Assembly: GCF_023746535.1 (NCBI RefSeq) | Contig: NZ_CP098747.1 | Location: 2,564,501 to 2,628,500, forward strand | DNA: 64,000 bases | DNA from: Sneathiella marina | GTDB lineage: Bacteria > Pseudomonadota > Alphaproteobacteria > Sneathiellales > Sneathiellaceae | Direction: 5' to 3' | Part shown: piece by piece, positions 16,428 to 24,808 of the stretch | How the letters are laid out: each line of letters opens with the position of its first letter | How positions within the stretch are numbered: the first letter of the stretch is position 1 | Made by a program: the position numbers and the translations under genes | The notes under the pieces: model-generated | What the model was told of the DNA's origin: nothing | The model's database searches: none | What the model saw: the letters and a program-made list of their open reading frames with translations, nothing else

Positions 16428-17786
16428 TTGGCACATTTAACCTGGATAAAAAATCCGCTGGCAATTCTTGCGGACAATGCCACGGGCGGCATTGTCATCA
16501 AGGATCAGGAAATCGTTGAACTGCTCCGTGCCGGGGCCTCTCCGACCGTTGATCCTGCAGACCGGTTGACAGTTTTTGATGCCTCTTCACATGTGGTATT
16601 GCCGGGTCTTATCAATGTCCATCATCATTTTTACCAGACCCTGACACGGGCCTGCCCGGTCGCCATCAACAAGCCGCTTTTTCCCTGGCTGAAATCACTC
16701 TATCCGCTTTGGGCCGAACTGGACGGGGACATGATGCGTCAGGCCTCCACCCTGGCATTGGCAGAATCCATGCTCTCGGGATGCACGACGGCGTCCGACC
16801 ATCACTATCTGTTTCCAAAAGCCCTACCCGATGCCATCGATATTCAGGTCGCGCAGGCGAAGATGCTGGGGGTCCGGGTTCACTTGACCCGTGGGTCCAT
16901 GAGCCTGGGGGTGGATCAGGGCGGCCTGCCGCCGCAATCAACGGTACAGGATGAGGATGTTATTCTGGATGACAGCGAACGATTAATAAATCTCTATCAT
17001 GACCCCAACAGCGGCGCCATGGTGCAAATCGCCCTCGCCCCGTGCTCGCCGTTTTCGGTCAGCACGGACTTGATGAAATCTTCCGCTTTGCTGGCCCGGA
17101 AATTCGGTGTCAGGTTGCATACCCATCTGGCAGAAACCCATGATGAGACAGATTTTTGCCTGTCCATGTTTGGCCGCCGTCCGGTGGATTATCTGGAAGA
17201 TGTCGGATGGCTGGCCGGGGATGTCTGGCTTGCCCATGGTATTCATTTCAATGATGAGGAAATCAGTCGCCTTGGTAAAGCCGGGGTCGGTATCGCCCAT
17301 TGCCCGTCGTCGAATATGATCCTGTCTTCCGGCATCGCCAGAACACTGGAGCTGGAGCGAGCGGGATCCCCCATTGGTCTTGGTGTTGACGGATCCGCCT
17401 CCAATGACGGATCAAACATGATTCAGGAAGTCCGGCAGGCCTTGTTACTGCAACGTCTGCGCTACAAGGCCAGCGAGATCACGCATCATTCCGCTTTTCG
17501 TTGGGCCACGGAAGGATCTGCCCGATGCCTGGGTCGCACCGATATTGGAAAGCTTGAAGTCGGCAAACAAGCCGACCTTGCCTTGTTCAAACTGGATGAG
17601 CCGCGGTTTTCCGGCTCCGGTGATCCCCTTGCCGCCTTGATCCTGTGCGGGGCGCATCAGGTGGATGCCTTGATGATCGCCGGTGACTGGCGTGTGCAGC
17701 AGGGAGAAATACCAGATCTTGATATGGCGGAGCTTATGCATCATCATCACCAACTGGGATTGAAGTTGCAGGCGGGTAGCGCGTAA
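16428..17786 (+). CDS. Amidohydrolase, 8-oxoguanine deaminase-like
   Basis: 452-residue metal-dependent deaminase of the AtzA/TrzN/guanine-deaminase branch. Metal ligands are seen as HxH in INVHHHFYQT (His65/67), HTHLAETHDET, LAHGIHFN and the catalytic Asp in GVDGSASND. The N-terminal HHHFYQTLTRACP and the HHYLFPK segment match my memory of bacterial 8-oxoguanine deaminases, but hydroxyatrazine-type or other purine/pterin substrates remain possible. The start is TTG 16428, supported by AAGGA six bases upstream; no ATG fits. It may form one unit with the PaaX-like gene that follows. Confidence 0.75.
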   Translation: MAHLTWIKNPLAILADNATGGIVIKDQEIVELLRAGASPTVDPADRLTVFDASSHVVLPGLINVHHHFYQTLTRACPVAINKPLFPWLKSLYPLWAELDGDMMRQASTLALAESMLSGCTTASDHHYLFPKALPDAIDIQVAQAKMLGVRVHLTRGSMSLGVDQGGLPPQSTVQDEDVILDDSERLINLYHDPNSGAMVQIALAPCSPFSVSTDLMKSSALLARKFGVRLHTHLAETHDETDFCLSMFGRRPVDYLEDVGWLAGDVWLAHGIHFNDEEISRLGKAGVGIAHCPSSNMILSSGIARTLELERAGSPIGLGVDGSASNDGSNMIQEVRQALLLQRLRYKASEITHHSAFRWATEGSARCLGRTDIGKLEVGKQADLALFKLDEPRFSGSGDPLAALILCGAHQVDALMIAGDWRVQQGEIPDLDMAELMHHHHQLGLKLQAGSA

Positions 17787-17802: not shown

Positions 17803-18738
17803 GTGAAGAATGATATGGACAAGCAGCTCGACTTCTTGTTCGAAAATCTCGATTTAAAGGCGAAATCCCTTCTGGTGACAGTATGGGGCGATTGCGTCGC
17901 CCCCCATGGCGGGACCGTCTGGCTGCGGAGTTTGATCAATCTTGTCGAACCGCTCGGGCTTAACGACCGAATGGTCAGGACTGCGGTATTCCGCCTGCAA
18001 AAGGATCAGCTTCTGTCGTCCGAACAACAGGGCCGCAAGAGTTTCTACAGCCTGACAGAAAATGGCCGTCACCGTTTTGCCGAAGCCACCCATCGTATCT
18101 ACGCAGCTGAAGACATGCCGTGGAATGAAAAATGGGTTTTGGTCTTCGCCGCCCGGCGTGACATGAGCGAAAAAGACAGGCGGCAATTGCAGACAGAGCT
18201 TGGATGGCTTGGCTTTGGCAGCCTCGGGGCCGGTATCTTCGCCCATCCGACTATATCCCTGCCGTCGGTGGAATCCGTGCTCAGCGATCTGGGATTGAAG
18301 GAACGGGCAACCCTTTTATATGGCAGCAGCCTCCCGCAATCACAATTTGGCGCACCGGATGCACTGGTCCGCAAGGGTTGGAATTTGGAAACCCTGGAAG
18401 CGGATTACCAGCAGTTCATTGACCGGTTCACAGGATTTTTATCACTGAAAGAACAGAAACCTGCCATCGACGAAAAAAAATGTTTCATTATTAGGAGCCT
18501 TCTGGTGCATGATTATCGTCGCGTTCTGTTACGGGATCCGATGCTGCCAGCAAAACTGCTGCCTGATGGATGGAATGGAAATCAGGCACGGGCTTTGTTT
18601 CAGCAGATTTATCAACAGGTCTGGGAGGGCGCCGAAAGGCATTTGTTGAATGTGCTGGAAAATTCCACTGGGAGATTGCCTCCCGCGTCAGAAGAATTTA
18701 AAGCCCGCTTCGGCGGCCTGAAAACGGTAAACGAGTAG
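17803..18738 (+). CDS. PaaX family transcriptional repressor
   Basis: 311 residues with the PaaX layout: an N-terminal winged-helix segment (SLLVTVWGDCVAPHGGTVWL, then INLVEPLGLNDRMVRTAVFR) and a long C-terminal domain with FYSLTENGRHRF and AEDMPWNEKW. PaaX proteins repress phenylacetate catabolism and are relieved by phenylacetyl-CoA. No paa genes are in the window, so its target may be the upstream amidohydrolase or genes elsewhere. Start is GTG 17803; an ATG at residue 5 is a minor alternative. Five bases separate it from the next gene. Confidence 0.82.
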   Translation: MKNDMDKQLDFLFENLDLKAKSLLVTVWGDCVAPHGGTVWLRSLINLVEPLGLNDRMVRTAVFRLQKDQLLSSEQQGRKSFYSLTENGRHRFAEATHRIYAAEDMPWNEKWVLVFAARRDMSEKDRRQLQTELGWLGFGSLGAGIFAHPTISLPSVESVLSDLGLKERATLLYGSSLPQSQFGAPDALVRKGWNLETLEADYQQFIDRFTGFLSLKEQKPAIDEKKCFIIRSLLVHDYRRVLLRDPMLPAKLLPDGWNGNQARALFQQIYQQVWEGAERHLLNVLENSTGRLPPASEEFKARFGGLKTVNE

Positions 18739-18743
18739 TAGAG

Positions 18744-20060
18744 ATGGTAGCAGGCTTAAAGATTGTTATTGTCGGATCCGGTCCGGCAGGAATGTACGCC
18801 GCAGGGGCAATCGTAAAGAAAAACCCGGAAAGTGTTATAGATATCGTCGATAAACTGGCCACGCCCTACGGGTTGGTCCGGGCAGGAGTGGCCCCCGATC
18901 ACCAGACAACCAAGAATGTTACCCGGGCCTATGACAAGGTCATGGAAAATGACAATGTCCGGTTTGTCGGAAATATCGGCCTTGGCGACGATATTCCTCT
19001 TGATAAATTACGGGATCTGTACGATGTCGTTATTATTGCAACCGGGACGCCGAAAGATCGAAATCTAGGCATTCCCGGAGAAGACAAGGATGGCGTCTTT
19101 GGCGCTCAGACTTTTGTTTACTGGTATAACGGCCATCCCGAGTATCGGGACGCTGTCCCTAACCTGGACATCACAACAGCCGTTGTTATCGGAAATGGAA
19201 ATGTCGCCCTTGATGCCGCCCGTATCCTGATGCGAACAGAGGAAGAGATGGCCCATTCCGATCTTGCCGACCATGCCGCCACAGAGATTTTCAATAGTCC
19301 GCTGCAGTCCGTTCATGTGGTTGGCCGCCGGGCACCGGAAAATGCTCAGTTCTCGTCGAAGGAATTAAGCGAATTTGGCGACCTCACATCAGCTAAGACC
19401 TATACGGACAAAACAAACCTGCCGGAGGAATTCATCTCCGAGGATAAAAAAGAAACCAAGGTTGTGAACACCAATCTGGACTTACTCCGGAGTTTCGAAC
19501 AAATCGGCCCCGGCATTAAGGGCCGGTCAGTTCATCTGGACTTTCTGGCAAGCCCCATTGAGGTCATGGGCGATACATCCATTACCGGTGTCCGCTTCGA
19601 ACGCAATGAAATTGTCGACGGCAAGGCCGTGGGGACCGGAGAAACCTATGATATCGACTGTCAGCTTCTTGTCTCCTGTATCGGCTATGAAATGGGTATC
19701 CTCGAAGGGCTGCCCGTTGAGAAAGGCATTGTAAAAAATGACGAAGGCTGCATTGCCGATGGCCTGTATGTGGTCGGTTGGGCGAAGCGCGGCCCGTCGG
19801 GTACCATCGGGACGAACCGGATTGATAGCCAGAATGTGGTCGATAGAATTCTTGGTGATTTTGACACGGGCGGAAATCCGGACAAAGCCGGTCCTGCAGG
19901 TCTGGACCAATGGTGTCAGGACAGAAATATCCGGGCCGTGTCGTTTGACGACTGGAAGAAAATAAACGCAGCCGAAATCGACCGGGCGGGCGATCAATCC
20001 CCGCGCCGGAAATTTGTCCGGACCCGCGATATGCTGTCTCTGCTGAAGGAAGGCAGCTAA
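18744..20060 (+). CDS. fprA: Adrenodoxin-reductase-type ferredoxin-NADP+ reductase
   Basis: 438-residue FAD/NADP flavoprotein that passes electrons from NADPH to a [2Fe-2S] ferredoxin. The FAD loop is VIVGSGPAGMYAA (residues 8-20). Family signatures are TPYGLVRAGVAPDHQ, GNGNVALDAARIL for NADP, and GWAKRGPSGTIGTNR near the C-terminus. These place it with mitochondrial adrenodoxin reductase and mycobacterial FprA rather than the plant-type FNRs. It sits between the PaaX-like regulator and a phosphodiesterase gene with 3-5 base gaps. A partner adrenodoxin-type ferredoxin is encoded 1.5 kb downstream on the other strand. Confidence 0.9.
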   Translation: MVAGLKIVIVGSGPAGMYAAGAIVKKNPESVIDIVDKLATPYGLVRAGVAPDHQTTKNVTRAYDKVMENDNVRFVGNIGLGDDIPLDKLRDLYDVVIIATGTPKDRNLGIPGEDKDGVFGAQTFVYWYNGHPEYRDAVPNLDITTAVVIGNGNVALDAARILMRTEEEMAHSDLADHAATEIFNSPLQSVHVVGRRAPENAQFSSKELSEFGDLTSAKTYTDKTNLPEEFISEDKKETKVVNTNLDLLRSFEQIGPGIKGRSVHLDFLASPIEVMGDTSITGVRFERNEIVDGKAVGTGETYDIDCQLLVSCIGYEMGILEGLPVEKGIVKNDEGCIADGLYVVGWAKRGPSGTIGTNRIDSQNVVDRILGDFDTGGNPDKAGPAGLDQWCQDRNIRAVSFDDWKKINAAEIDRAGDQSPRRKFVRTRDMLSLLKEGS

Positions 20061-20063
20061 CCC

Positions 20064-20870
20064 ATGCTGATTGCCCAGATTACAGATATGCATGTGGTAT
20101 TACCTGACGATCCGATGGCGGAGCTGTATCAGACCGCTGACCGACTGGCGGAAGCTGTCCGGCATCTCAACATAACGGTCAATAAGCCAGATATGGTTTT
20201 TATGACGGGAGATCTGGTGAACTGCGGGAAAGTTAAAGAATATGAGTTGCTGCGGGAGCTGATATCACCGCTCGGCATGCCGGTGTATCTTATGGCCGGG
20301 AATCATGACGACTGTGACAACCTGCGCTCTGTTTTTCCTGATCATGACTATCTTCCAGCCACAGGTCCCCTCTGTTATGCCATCAATGACGGGCCGCTGA
20401 AACTTATTGCACTGGACACCAACTTACCCGGTAAATCGCAAGGTCAGCTGGGCGATGCCCAACTAGCCTGGCTTGATGCCGAACTGCAAGCCTGCACGGA
20501 TCGAAACGCCCTGATTTTCATGCATCATCCGCCGTTCAGAACCGGCCTGGTCACCATGGATGACATGAACTTGATCGATGCCGACGCCTTTGGCGAGGTT
20601 GTTTCCCGTCACAGCAATATTGAACGTATTCTATGTGGCCATCTGCATCGGGCAACCCAGACCCTGTATAAAGGCACATTGGCGCAAACCTGTCCCTCCA
20701 CTTCCCATCAGATCAATCTGCTTCTGGGGGAGACGAATGAGCTGGAAACAGTGAAGGAGCCACCGGAGCTTTTGCTGCATTACTGGACGGAGGAGGACGG
20801 CCTGGTCACCCATAATGACTATGTGAAAAACTACCCCGCCGTCTGGAAAATGAAAAGTGGCGTTCAGTAA
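20064..20870 (+). CDS. Metallophosphoesterase, CpdA (cAMP phosphodiesterase)-like
   Basis: 268 residues with the complete calcineurin-type motif set: ITDMHV (Asp7, His9), MTGDLVN, MAGNHDD, FMHHPP and GHLHRAT. This arrangement is that of class III cyclic-nucleotide phosphodiesterases such as CpdA, which hydrolyse 3',5'-cAMP. A Crp-type regulator gene lies 4 kb away, which would fit cAMP control, though the substrate cannot be read from sequence. It begins 3 bases after fprA. Confidence 0.8.
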   Translation: MLIAQITDMHVVLPDDPMAELYQTADRLAEAVRHLNITVNKPDMVFMTGDLVNCGKVKEYELLRELISPLGMPVYLMAGNHDDCDNLRSVFPDHDYLPATGPLCYAINDGPLKLIALDTNLPGKSQGQLGDAQLAWLDAELQACTDRNALIFMHHPPFRTGLVTMDDMNLIDADAFGEVVSRHSNIERILCGHLHRATQTLYKGTLAQTCPSTSHQINLLLGETNELETVKEPPELLLHYWTEEDGLVTHNDYVKNYPAVWKMKSGVQ

Positions 20871-20885
20871 ACAAGCCGGTCTCGC

Positions 20886-21560
20886 CTACCCCCGATAATC
20901 CAGACCCATTTGCCAGAATCCAACTTCCAACCGGGTTGCGTCGCGAAAAATCTTGGAAATTTGCGGTGCTCGCTGGTCTGTCATATATCTGGCGGACAGC
21001 TCATTAAGATGGGCCTGCGTATTCTTGACCACTTCCTGATAATCGTCGCTGGCATACATGTCGATCCAGGACATATAGGGGTTGCCCTCCACCACCGTCT
21101 CCGGGGAGGCTTTCAACCGCGCGCCAATCTCGCCATAGCCAATGACGCATGGACTGAGCGCGATCAACAAATCGAACACATCCCCGGCCATTCCCCGGTC
21201 CAGCACATAACGGGTGTAGGCTAGATTCTCCTGCGCTTCCTCCACATGTTCCAGCGTCTCAACGTCGATACCCCACTCCTTGCAATAGGAAATATGCATA
21301 TCCATTTCCACATTGATCAAACCATGCAGGGTTTCGGACACGGTCCGCATCTCTGCTAGGGAATGGGATTTGAAAATCGCCAGCGCATACGCGCGCGCGA
21401 AATGGATTAAAAAGACATAATCCTGTTTCAGGTAATATTGAAACATCTCTTTTGGCAAATCCCCGCGTTGCAGGGCAGCAATAAATTCATGATGGGTATA
21501 GGCGTGCCATACGTCCTGATTTTCTGATTTCAATCGATCGAAAATACCGTTTTTTATCAT
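20886..21560 (-). CDS. tenA: TenA family aminopyrimidine aminohydrolase (thiaminase II)
   Basis: 224-residue all-helical enzyme of thiamine-pyrimidine salvage. The catalytic cysteine is Cys138 in LSPCVIGYGEIG, and a C-terminal glutamate is in EVGFWQMGL. The TYTHHEF-like start (AYTHHEFIAAL) and FQYYLKQDYVFL are typical. It is the last gene of the minus-strand cysE-desulfurase-ferredoxin-tenA series, 34 bases after ferredoxin. No TPP riboswitch precedes it and no other thi gene is present. Confidence 0.88.
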   Translation of the reverse strand: MIKNGIFDRLKSENQDVWHAYTHHEFIAALQRGDLPKEMFQYYLKQDYVFLIHFARAYALAIFKSHSLAEMRTVSETLHGLINVEMDMHISYCKEWGIDVETLEHVEEAQENLAYTRYVLDRGMAGDVFDLLIALSPCVIGYGEIGARLKASPETVVEGNPYMSWIDMYASDDYQEVVKNTQAHLNELSARYMTDQRAPQISKIFRDATRLEVGFWQMGLDYRG

Positions 21561-21594
21561 AACGTTACGCCTTGCGGAGAGGGAGTGGGTTTAA

Positions 21595-21924
21595 CTAGAG
21601 AAGCAGGTTGTTCGAGCCGCTGGGTAGATTAACGACAAGGCCGTCAAGTTCTTCGGTAATCCGAATTTGGCAGCCAAGCCGGGAGGTCCGCGTCAGGCCA
21701 TAGGCCAGGTCCAGCATATCCTCCTCGTCGTCATCTGCATCCGGCAAGCGGTCAAAATCTTCTTCATCAACAATAATATGACATGTCGAACACGCGAGAC
21801 TGCCTTCACATGCCCCTTCCAGATCAAGTTTATTCCGATGGGCGATTTCTAAAATGGACATGCCCAAAGGCGCCTCCACTTCCAGCTTGCTGCCATCGGG
21901 CTTAATAAAAGTCATCTTGGGCAT
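21595..21924 (-). CDS. fdx: Adrenodoxin-type [2Fe-2S] ferredoxin
   Basis: 109 residues with the cluster ligands Cys39, Cys45, Cys48 ([10 protein letters not shown]) and Cys85 (RLGCQIRI). The spacing C-x5-C-x2-C-x36-C and the acidic [11 protein letters not shown] patch, which docks the reductase, are those of adrenodoxin and Isc ferredoxins. It passes electrons one at a time, probably to Fe-S cluster assembly. It follows a cysteine desulfurase gene on the same strand, and an adrenodoxin-reductase-type gene lies nearby. Confidence 0.93.
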
Positions 21925-21959
21925 AAAATATTGGCTCCTGATTAATCCACCTATTTTAC

Positions 21960-23117
21960 CTATCGTGCTGATTGTTCGCTGTCCAGCTCTAAGGGTATAT
22001 AATCAGTTGATTTTCGCTGAAATAAGGCAGTCCAGCATTTTAACAGGGCATCAATATCTGATTGGGCCGTTGTCGGGCCAAGACTGATGCGGATTGCTGT
22101 TCCGGCTTCGCCTTCGGGCACGCCCATGGCCATCAGGACGTGGCTGGCCTTGACCTTGCCCGATGAACAGGCAGAGCCCGCGCTCACCGCGACACCGGCC
22201 AGATCAAAGTTCATCACCTGTAGCTCCGACGGGACGCCGGGCATGGAGACAGAAACCGTGTTGGGTAACCGCGGAACATCGGCCCCATAAATCACGGCCC
22301 CGGGCGAGACATCGTTAATCGCGCGTTCCAGACCATCGCGTAGCTGCCGCACGTTATCCTGTTCAGCAAGCCGCGCGTCGGCCAGCGCGGCGGCTACCCC
22401 AAATCCGACAATTCCGGCGACATTTTCTGTTCCGGCCCGCCGTCCCAACTCCTGCCCGCCCCCTTTAACTACGGGCTCGATGGCCACCCCCTCACGTAAG
22501 ACCAGCGCCCCCATTCCCTGGGGGCCACCGAATTTATGAGCGGAGATTGACATCATATCAACGCCAAGGTCTTTAAAATCAACGGGGATCTTGGCAACGG
22601 CCTGAATGGCGTCACAATGTAAAAGGGCTTCATATCGGTGAACAATTTGGGCGATTTCCTTAACCGGCTGGATAACGCCGGTTTCATTATTGGCCATCAT
22701 GACAGAAACCAGTACCGGTGCCGATGCCGCCTGTAATTGCGCTTCCAGATCAGACAGGTCTGCAAGTCCATTATGGTCCACCCGAACAACAACAGGCTCA
22801 TGCGCCAAGGCAACCGACAAAATTGAGTCATGTTCGGTGGCCGAGATCATGAGCTGCCGGTTGGGCAATCCGGACAGGGCGAAATTATTTGCTTCCGTAC
22901 CGCCAGAGGTGAAGATGATTTCGGGCGCTTTACAATTGATCAGCCCGGCGATCTGCCGCCGTGCCTCTTCCACTTTATTGCGCGAAGAGCGCCCCTGCTG
23001 ATGGACGGAAGATGGATTGCCCCCCTCTTCCATGGTTGCCACCATCGCGGCGATAACTTCGGGCCGGATCGGCGCTGTCGCATTGAAATCAAGATAGATT
23101 ATATTAGTCATGCCCAT
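21960..23117 (-). CDS. Cysteine desulfurase, NifS/IscS family
   Basis: 385-residue PLP enzyme that converts cysteine to alanine plus a persulfide. It has [14 protein letters not shown] at the N-terminus, the base-stacking histidine in ATEHDS, the PLP lysine Lys195 in [12 protein letters not shown], and the active cysteine Cys317 in [10 protein letters not shown]. The short loop with SACSSG is that of group I enzymes. IscR, IscU, HscA and HscB are not adjacent, so iscS is not assigned. It lies between cysE (cysteine supply) and ferredoxin, a functional series from sulfur source to electron donor. Confidence 0.9.
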
Positions 23118-23175: not shown

Positions 23176-23940
23176 TTAAAGTTCGCTTTTTCGATCCGGT
23201 GCCGTCGATTTTTCAGACGGTTTCTTTCCTTCCAGCGGAAGCGTCGTTTCCGGCGCAGAACCATTTTCGCGTTCCAGTTCTTCCACCCGCATCGACAGCG
23301 ATTGTACTTTATCCAACAAGCCATCCATGACCTTAAAGACCGGATCCGGCAAATCATGTGTTCCGACACCATATGCCGCAAACTTCGCATCTTCTCGTAC
23401 TTTTTTCGACGCGCTGACGGCACGGGCGGGTATGCCGACAACCGTTGTCCGCTCGGGTACATCTTTCAAGACAACGGAATTCGCACCAACCCGCGCGCAA
23501 TTGCCGACGGTGATCGGTCCGATGATCTGAGCGCCGGAGGCAATAATAACGTTATCGTTCAATGTGGGATGACGTTTTACGCCCCGTTGCGAATCTGAAT
23601 CGATCGACGGCGCCACGCCGCCAAGGGTGACCCCCTGGTATAATGTGACATTATCGCCAATTTCAGCAGTCTCACCGACAACGATGCCCGTGCCATGGTC
23701 CATAAAGAACTTCCGGCCGATGCGGGCACCGGGATGAATTTCAATGCCGGTTATAAAACGGCTAAACTGCGAGAGAAACCGCGCAGTTATGCGCCATTTT
23801 CGGGACCAGAGCCAATGCGCTATCCGGTGGCTGACGATAGAATGGAAGCCTGGATAGAGCAACGCGACTTCGAATCTGCTCCGCGCTGCGGGGTCCCGCT
23901 CCATAACGCAGGTAATTTCTTCGCTTATATGCTTGAACAT
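23176..23940 (-). CDS. cysE: Serine O-acetyltransferase
   Basis: 254 residues. It makes O-acetylserine, substrate of CysK. The left-handed beta-helix hexapeptide region is visible from [18 protein letters not shown] onward, including [21 protein letters not shown] and [17 protein letters not shown]. The catalytic His/Asp are in MDHGTG. The C-terminal tail after about residue 190 is longer than in short CysE forms and ends in a charged low-complexity stretch, so feedback inhibition through the tail may differ. First gene of the minus-strand run; candidate promoter at 24017-24044. Confidence 0.92.
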
Positions 23941-24154: not shown

Positions 24155-24808
24155 ATGCCTGACGTAATTTTTAATGGACCAGAAGGCCGCCTTGAAGGGC
24201 GCTATCATCATTCGGAAATTACCAATGCCCCACTTGCACTGGTTTTACATCCTCATCCGCAATATGGCGGAGCGATGAATAACAAGGTTGTCTATCACCT
24301 GTTTACGACGTTCAAAAGACGGGGATTTTCCGTTCTTCGGTTTAATTTCCGCGGTGTTGGCCGTAGTCAGGGTGATTATGACAGCGGCATTGGCGAATTG
24401 TCAGATGCAGCCTCAGCACTTGACTGGATGCAGACCCATAATCCGAATGCGCCCGCTGTCTGGATCGCCGGCTTTTCCTTTGGTGCCTGGATCTCCATGC
24501 AGCTGTTGATGCGGCGCCCCGAAGTTGCCGGCTTCATTTCCGTCGCACCGCCAGCCAATATGTACGACTTCTCGTTTCTGGCGCCCTGCCCGTCATCGGG
24601 TATCATCATTCATGGTGAGAAAGACGTGCTTGTCCCGCAAAGCGATACATTGAAGCTTGTCGAAAAACTACAGTCTCAAAAAGGCATTGTCATTCATCAT
24701 GACGAAATTCCCAATGCGGATCATTTTTTCGAAAACAGCCATGATGCCTTGATGCAATCCGTTGACGGCTACCTTGATATGCGCCTGCATGGCGGAGACG
24801 AAGAATAA
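24155..24808 (+). CDS. Alpha/beta hydrolase
   Basis: 217 residues. The nucleophile elbow is GFSFGAW (Ser near residue 109), the oxyanion region HPHPQYGGAMNNKV near the start, and a late HDEIPNADHFF supplies the histidine. The pattern HPHP..GG.M.NKVV and FRGVGRS.G.YD matches the COG2945-type predicted hydrolases found widely in Proteobacteria. Substrate is unknown. It is convergent with anmK, separated by 3 bases, and divergent from cysE. Confidence 0.82.
   Translation: MPDVIFNGPEGRLEGRYHHSEITNAPLALVLHPHPQYGGAMNNKVVYHLFTTFKRRGFSVLRFNFRGVGRSQGDYDSGIGELSDAASALDWMQTHNPNAPAVWIAGFSFGAWISMQLLMRRPEVAGFISVAPPANMYDFSFLAPCPSSGIIIHGEKDVLVPQSDTLKLVEKLQSQKGIVIHHDEIPNADHFFENSHDALMQSVDGYLDMRLHGGDEE

Follow-up and report, generated by a model that had tools for sequence, protein, structure and literature searches.

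Introduction

The iron-sulfur cluster (ISC) machinery is ancestral to Alphaproteobacteria and was lost in many SUF-bearing lineages, according to Garcia et al. 2023 (PMC10631705). The class also contains isc-suf operons, which two reports (PMC6956336 and PMC11475020) describe as comprising iscR, suf genes, a divergent putative hydrolase (RSP_0444), and one desulfurase designated IscS, whose Caulobacter form is 34.9% identical to its E. coli namesake. In this study, we analyzed a locus of Sneathiella marina (assembly GCF_023746535.1, contig NZ_CP098747.1) in a stretch of 64,000 nucleotides (positions 2,564,501 to 2,628,500 of the forward strand), referred to as the window. An initial annotation, made from the sequence alone, noted an adrenodoxin-reductase-type enzyme (FDXR), an adrenodoxin-type ferredoxin (Fdx), and a group I cysteine desulfurase (NIFS) within 4.4 kb. 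All three open reading frames (ORFs) are indeed present there; iscR, iscU, hscA, and hscB, which it had noted as missing from the 4.4 kb, are absent from the whole stretch. We propose, with a probability of roughly 0.7, that the neighboring row cysE-nifS-fdx-tenA is the remnant of an ISC operon that lost its core, with SUF carrying out iron-sulfur (Fe-S) assembly and the leftover genes remaining functional. The locus does not look like a working mitochondrial pathway; it looks like the trace of one assembly machine replaced by another.

Results

Gene layout of the locus

From left to right, the locus contains genes for an 8-oxoguanine deaminase, a PaaX-type regulator, FDXR, and a phosphodiesterase (PDE) on the plus strand, then tenA, fdx, the nifS-type desulfurase gene, and cysE on the minus strand, and finally an alpha/beta hydrolase (ABH) gene on the plus strand. 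The site flanked by the ABH gene is called the slot below. The genes of the slot and the facing pair are as follows (window positions):

23176..23940, minus strand: cysE, serine O-acetyltransferase, heading the minus-strand row (TIGR01172 232.7, cut-off 210.65)
21960..23117, minus strand: NIFS, the group I cysteine desulfurase of the slot, not an IscS/NFS1 orthologue (profiles, structure matches, trees)
21595..21924, minus strand: Fdx, an ISC/adrenodoxin-type [2Fe-2S] ferredoxin (structure matches, profile score, tree)
20886..21560, minus strand: TenA, thiaminase II (TIGR04306 154.8 bits, cut-off 130)
24155..24808, plus strand: divergent ABH, left flank of the slot (Pfam)
18744..20060, plus strand: FDXR/FprA-type NADPH:ferredoxin reductase (phmmer to FprA 1lqt, residues 7-435, and to adrenodoxin reductase (AdR) 1cjc, residues 6-434)
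20064..20870, plus strand: calcineurin-like (SpdA/CpdA-like) PDE, 3 bases after FDXR (Pfam Metallophos 2.4e-17)

Neighboring genes are separated by 58, 35, and 34 bases in the minus-strand row and by 16, 5, and 3 bases in the plus-strand row. These distances suggest two operons, cysE-nifS-fdx-tenA and a plus-strand row with paaX-FDXR-PDE. The two rows converge with 15 bases between them. The reductase is thus encoded on the opposite strand from the ferredoxin and the desulfurase, and PDE and tenA lie between reductase and ferredoxin.

Correspondence with alphaproteobacterial ISC operons

We mapped 100 loci (sets of 20 and 80) by tblastn, with the window proteins, the genome's own SUF proteins, and E. 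coli isc proteins as queries, since in high-GC loci ORF-based mapping obscured genes beneath long frames on the wrong strand. The set of 80 comprises the best 80 of at least 595 loci by NIFS similarity, and the counts given here are not frequencies in nature. L and G numbers denote loci and genomes.

A common frame recurs in these loci, although not every gene is found everywhere: a divergent ABH, then cysE, iscR (Rrf2), NIFS, a variable middle, fdx, iscX, and tenA. In the middle, Thalassospira lucentensis (L081), Zavarzinia (L111), Paramagnetospirillum (L120), and others carry iscS-iscU-iscA-hscB-hscA, and the ISC operons of L081, L111, and a Rhodospirillales metagenome-assembled genome (L105) end in tenA. 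The relative L179 (G001) has the order ABH (divergent), cysE, iscR, NIFS, iscS, iscU, iscA, hscB, hscA, fdx, iscX, and tenA, followed by PDE and FDXR in the opposite direction, which is the gene order of the window, convergent PDE-FDXR included, plus the genes that are missing from the window. The correspondence between the window and the ISC operon is therefore shown by synteny. In L180 (G093), ISC genes with tenA are likewise found with a convergent FDXR some kilobases on; cysE and PDE were undetected at this locus.

The L179 locus (L179:3926-15514, G001:C51) packs the full ISC set and the convergent PDE-FDXR pair into approximately 12 kb with no SUF detected, and is the nearest mitochondria-like one-locus set found here. 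Such a set in one place exists in this relative and not in the window. As a further observation, tenA recurs as the last gene both of alphaproteobacterial isc operons (L081, L105, L111, and L179) and of emptied slots.

Of the 96 mapped relatives carrying a NIFS label, 79 have the ABH flank. The counts below use the 56 loci (16 of 20 and 40 of 80) in which this flank is present and the sequence extends 5 kb or more downstream; dropped were four loci without NIFS as the best match and, among the other 96, 40 without the flank or the 5 kb. The middle of these 56 slots is SUF in 24, ISC in 12, iscS without iscU or sufB in seven, and none of these in 13. The last group includes two slots of the window's genus and L113 of its sister genus. 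A middle of sufB-C-D-S-T is found in several Bradyrhizobium and in Caulobacter (L124) and Hyphomonas (L121). Ten of the 13 coreless slots, but only two of the 24 SUF slots, have fdx no more than 8.5 kb away.

These middles also suit a different history, in which the site is a standing Fe-S module whose ends (ABH and cysE-iscR-nifS on one side, fdx-tenA on the other) stay while ISC and SUF middles are exchanged, the SUF core of the window genome having later moved, or arrived, elsewhere. The 24 SUF slots and the hybrid arrangement of L052 and L066 (G208 and G102) point in this direction; the hybrids run cysE-iscR-nifS-iscS, then sufBCDSUT, fdx, and tenA, with a gene for an A-type carrier before fdx, all in one slot. 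Published isc-suf operons with a divergent hydrolase (PMC6956336 and PMC11475020) are also in line with it. However, no exchange step was observed, the SUF operon of the window genome lies 0.6 Mb off with its own rrf2, and the fdx end is often not kept, since 22 of the 24 SUF slots have no fdx within 8.5 kb (one of three in the set of 20 and 21 of 21 in the set of 80). We regard exchange of the middle as possible but doubtful, and prefer loss of the ISC core from the slot.

SUF and ISC genes elsewhere in the genome

The window genome is a single contig of 4.07 Mb, 99.8% complete. The initial annotation had suggested that scaffold and chaperones may be encoded elsewhere in it and called for a genome search for iscU, hscA, and suf genes. 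That search found an operon rrf2-sufB-sufC-sufD-sufS-sufU-sufT at approximately 1.984-1.990 Mb; SufB and SufD were assigned by family (SUFBD_core twice over cut-off), sufU by NifU_N, sufS by a SufS-type match, and the rest was read from neighbors. No IscU (TIGR01999) exceeded the cut-off in any of five genomes of the genus, compared with 102 of the 385 genomes in a class sample. HscB (PF07743) had no match in the window genome, with a positive E. coli control; HscA and CyaY were not searched separately. The suggested location of scaffold and co-chaperone outside the window was thus not borne out.

NifU_N had two matches, of 77 and 38 bits, over the Pfam cut-off of 22. We read the 77-bit protein as SufU of the suf operon and the 38-bit one as a molybdenum-cluster protein. 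The latter (L013:7258-7692, G000, 2.31 Mb) lies inside a gene cluster that is presumably CO-dehydrogenase/molybdenum-cofactor-like.

SufB/D proteins were present in all six genomes examined whose slot is emptied or keeps only iscS (G000, G168, G342, G385, G281, and G060) and gave no match in the two genomes with a full ISC slot near FDXR (G001 and G093).

Desulfurase and ferredoxin

The desulfurase belongs to group I, with 4ixo ("NifS-like") as its best solved match at 279 bits versus 216 bits for mitochondrial NFS1, and it scored under all NCBIfam desulfurase cut-offs shown. In a reduced tree, from which the long NIFS sequences L089 and L103 and the SufS of the genome itself were omitted, the NIFS clade containing the window enzyme is split from IscS and mitochondrial NFS1 with 100/100 support; the split recurs at lower support (90/81 and 80/60) in a fuller tree. 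IscS of L179 matches NFS1 at 610 bits through the C-terminal tail, and the tail of the window desulfurase differs, without the IscS ending. An identity as NFS1 orthologue, which the reading in the initial annotation implies, is rejected by score and tree. The window enzyme instead corresponds to the desulfurase that comes first in alphaproteobacterial isc and isc-suf operons.

A second desulfurase of the genome, at 0.96 Mb (L012 7853-9046, minus strand) beside a gene that we take to be add, belongs to the IscS branch; it matches NFS1 at 370 bits, and the match stops before the tail. In another genome of the set (L203, G388:C11:100244-101344), the slot desulfurase gene carries a frameshift at its 3' end and its frame extends across fdx, giving a 503-aa open frame, an apparent desulfurase-ferredoxin fusion that could be a sequencing error.

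The best solved match of Fdx is 2mj3, labelled "iron-sulfur cluster binding protein", which we take to be an Ehrlichia protein, followed by the mitochondrial ferredoxins 2mjd and 2wlb and then by adrenodoxins. A small tree places Fdx in a group of ten alphaproteobacterial ferredoxins from ISC-type loci (86/78), with mitochondrial ferredoxins outside that group in an unsettled position. While its score against the ISC ferredoxin model TIGR02007 (95.4) is under the curated cut-off of 132.1, tree and synteny identify Fdx as an ISC-type ferredoxin. The genome encodes a second ferredoxin, putidaredoxin-like and located at 3.12 Mb (L016), which is far from it in the tree.

Together, these data bear on whether the three proteins form a working mitochondria-like route with scaffold and chaperones encoded elsewhere. 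All three protein types are present, the ferredoxin belongs to the ISC type and has mitochondrial ferredoxins among its best solved matches, and it matches the acidic binding residues of adrenodoxin. As a complete route this is nevertheless refuted, and the reading as a whole is very improbable, given a practically complete genome without IscU over the cut-off and without HscB, the presence of SUF genes, and a desulfurase that falls outside the IscS/NFS1 clade and lacks the C-terminal tail of IscS and NFS1. What survives of the "surviving arrangement" is its history: the locus looks like an ISC-locus remnant, and a SUF-less relative keeps the full set in the same order and place.

Conservation and selection in the genus

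The gene order was followed in 25 genomes, 24 of the window's genus plus Oceanibacterium (G385). Five of the 24 were left out for want of a full-length slot desulfurase (completeness 65, 70, 66, 56, and 98%), and one contig (L207) ends at fdx. Counting the window, 18 loci of the genus lie on contigs long enough to show the whole arrangement, and all of them have cysE-NIFS-fdx-tenA opposite a convergent PDE-FDXR. K195 and C317 of the desulfurase, which align to K206 and C328 of E. coli IscS, and six other catalytic or pyridoxal phosphate-binding positions are kept in all 18 sequences. The ratio of nonsynonymous to synonymous substitution rates (dN/dS), calculated from the six closest pairs among four genomes (pairs that are not independent, with dS of 0.3 to 1.5), was 0.10-0.15 for NIFS, 0.01-0.05 for FDX, 0.05-0.09 for FDXR, 0.06-0.12 for tenA, 0.06-0.09 for cysE, and 0.08-0.20 for PDE. 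The remaining genes are under purifying selection, and the remnant is in use.

Reductase and its genomic setting

FDXR aligns over almost its entire length with FprA 1lqt (1.4e-79) and bovine AdR 1cjc (1.7e-74), at 38% and 35% sequence identity, respectively, and is the sole full-length match of its kind in the genome. Its row begins with two further genes:

16428..17786, plus strand: 8-oxoguanine deaminase, before paaX (NF006055 674.6, cut-off 532)
17803..18738, plus strand: PaaX-type regulator, 5 bases before FDXR (TIGR02277 285.9, cut-off 264.55)

The deaminase gene adjoins paaX-FDXR-PDE in some members of the genus and was undetected beside paaX in others (e.g., L204, L205, and L213). The best NCBIfam model for PDE is SpdA, at 150 bits under a cut-off of 400.

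In PMC7593955, Asp79, Asp76, Asp72, and Asp39 of adrenodoxin are listed with Arg211, Arg240, Arg244, and Lys27 of AdR. Read from the alignment, the window Fdx has acidic residues at all four of these interface places. Pairing of FDXR with Fdx is plausible.

Several observations weigh against the proposed history or against the roles that we assign to its products. As for the pairing, only Lys27 of the four AdR positions is kept in FDXR; Arg211 is replaced by Ser, Arg240 by Lys, and Arg244 by Lys or Val depending on the alignment, the Arg240-244 region aligning poorly. (Position 211 is Arg in nine of 21 aligned alphaproteobacterial FDXRs and Ala in the slot neighbors L113, L179, and L180.) The direction of change, probably loss and not gain, is taken from gene order in outgroups and from published work. 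In the desulfurase tree, the window enzyme clusters both with its own genus (100/97) and with L055, which belongs to another family (99/98), while that of Oceanibacterium sits in an unsettled fork. Descent at the slot is for this reason not simply vertical, and some horizontal exchange of slot genes is possible. FDXR of the window's genus does not form a clade with that of Oceanibacterium (p-AU 0.0001 in the approximately unbiased (AU) test; the group was named after the tree had been seen), which weakens joint descent of slot and FDXR within the family. Finally, IscU occurs in 17 of 95 FDXR-positive genomes versus 94 of 290 FDXR-negative ones in the class sample (Fisher p 0.006, odds ratio 0.45, kinship ignored). 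For this count, FDXR presence means E under 1e-30 (three partial) and IscU presence means 102 matches over the cut-off plus nine near it; a partial IscU-like match at a contig end in the FDXR-positive G025 and six matches at 125-135 bits were left out. The notion that FDXR presence tracks ISC across the class was rejected on these numbers, IscU being rarer in FDXR-positive genomes.

The negative association and the FDXR tree fit a reading in which the reductase is a chance neighbor, part of a PaaX-linked catabolic or P450 redox operon unrelated to nifS-fdx. Its position on the opposite strand in its own gene row agrees with this, as does a PaaX-FDXR-PDE set at L183, where the 17 kb covered around it contain no slot genes. 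The genome also has two P450 genes, and the window Fdx has no tblastn match in the 11 kb around each, a search in which small other ferredoxins could be missed. Against chance stand the adjacency kept in all 18 genus loci and an FDXR convergent within approximately 10 kb of the slot desulfurase in at least G001, G093, and Oceanibacterium. We consider an unrelated reductase a real possibility that falls short of even odds.

Discussion

We propose that the ancestral operon was cysE-iscR-nifS-iscS-iscU-iscA-hscB-hscA-fdx-iscX-tenA, that the regulator and the cluster-assembly core would have been lost from it, and that SUF, elsewhere on the chromosome, would have taken over Fe-S assembly. In the remnant, CysE would supply O-acetylserine for cysteine, and the desulfurase may make persulfide for clients other than IscU, such as tRNA or cofactor thiolation or the feeding of SUF. 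Electrons may pass from NADPH via FDXR and Fdx to IscU-independent clients, for which heme A synthase, lipoyl synthase, and the two P450s of the genome are candidates. Fdx, FDXR, and the desulfurase probably now serve non-ISC electron clients and sulfur donation. Lipoyl synthase is included because human FDX1 serves lipoylation, as the title of PMC10470009 states. The terminal tenA hints, as a guess, at thiamine-related sulfur use.

More broadly, one alphaproteobacterial site may be a long-lived Fe-S slot whose ends (the hydrolase and cysE-iscR-nifS; fdx-tenA) tend to stay while the core is exchanged (ISC, SUF, hybrid, or none), with end-gene functions independent of the core and with SUF-free members such as L179, which carry FDXR at the same site, preserving an entire mitochondria-like FDXR-Fdx-ISC unit. 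This generalization is tentative, and we give it nearly even odds. Emptied slots with nifS-fdx-tenA were not described in the literature surveyed, and we do not claim that they are absent from print. Among the matches listed for adrenodoxin reductase/FprA in Alphaproteobacteria and for Sneathiella Fe-S or ferredoxin literature, no title concerned the locus.

Mitochondria kept ISC, whereas SUF-bearing alphaproteobacterial lineages often lost it. The emptied living slots show which genes of the ISC operon, nifS and fdx, are worth keeping without the ISC core. They also make the role of an ISC-type ferredoxin and FDXR in an IscU-less cell testable, a bacterial counterpart of the non-ISC roles of mitochondrial ferredoxins.

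Among known systems, Mycobacterium tuberculosis resembles the window genome as a SUF cell with one group I desulfurase (a lone iscS; PMC8300815) and an FprA/AdR-type reductase (FprA, 1lqt); this parallel draws on that report and the FprA match, not on a comparison of loci. The alphaproteobacterial isc-suf operon of Caulobacter (PMC11475020) and Rhodobacter (PMC6956336) shares the divergent upstream hydrolase and the group I desulfurase. We infer from position that RSP_0444 equals ABH and that the published isc-suf IscS is the slot desulfurase, the order in Caulobacter endophyticus (L124) being divergent ABH, RRF2, NIFS, and SUFB. Unlike this operon, the window has no iscR and has fdx and tenA, not suf genes, after the desulfurase, with SUF located elsewhere. 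The alphaproteobacterial ISC operon (L081, L111, and L120) has cysE, nifS, and fdx in the same order as the window and the same left flank, with tenA in L081 and L111; it differs in having iscR, iscS, iscU, iscA, hscB, hscA, and iscX, all of which the window lacks. While the window genome, unlike mitochondria, has no IscU over the cut-off and no HscB, and its desulfurase comes from another group I branch, it shares an ISC-type ferredoxin and an FDXR homologue with the early mitochondrial ISC machinery of NFS1, ISCU2, FDX2, and FDXR.

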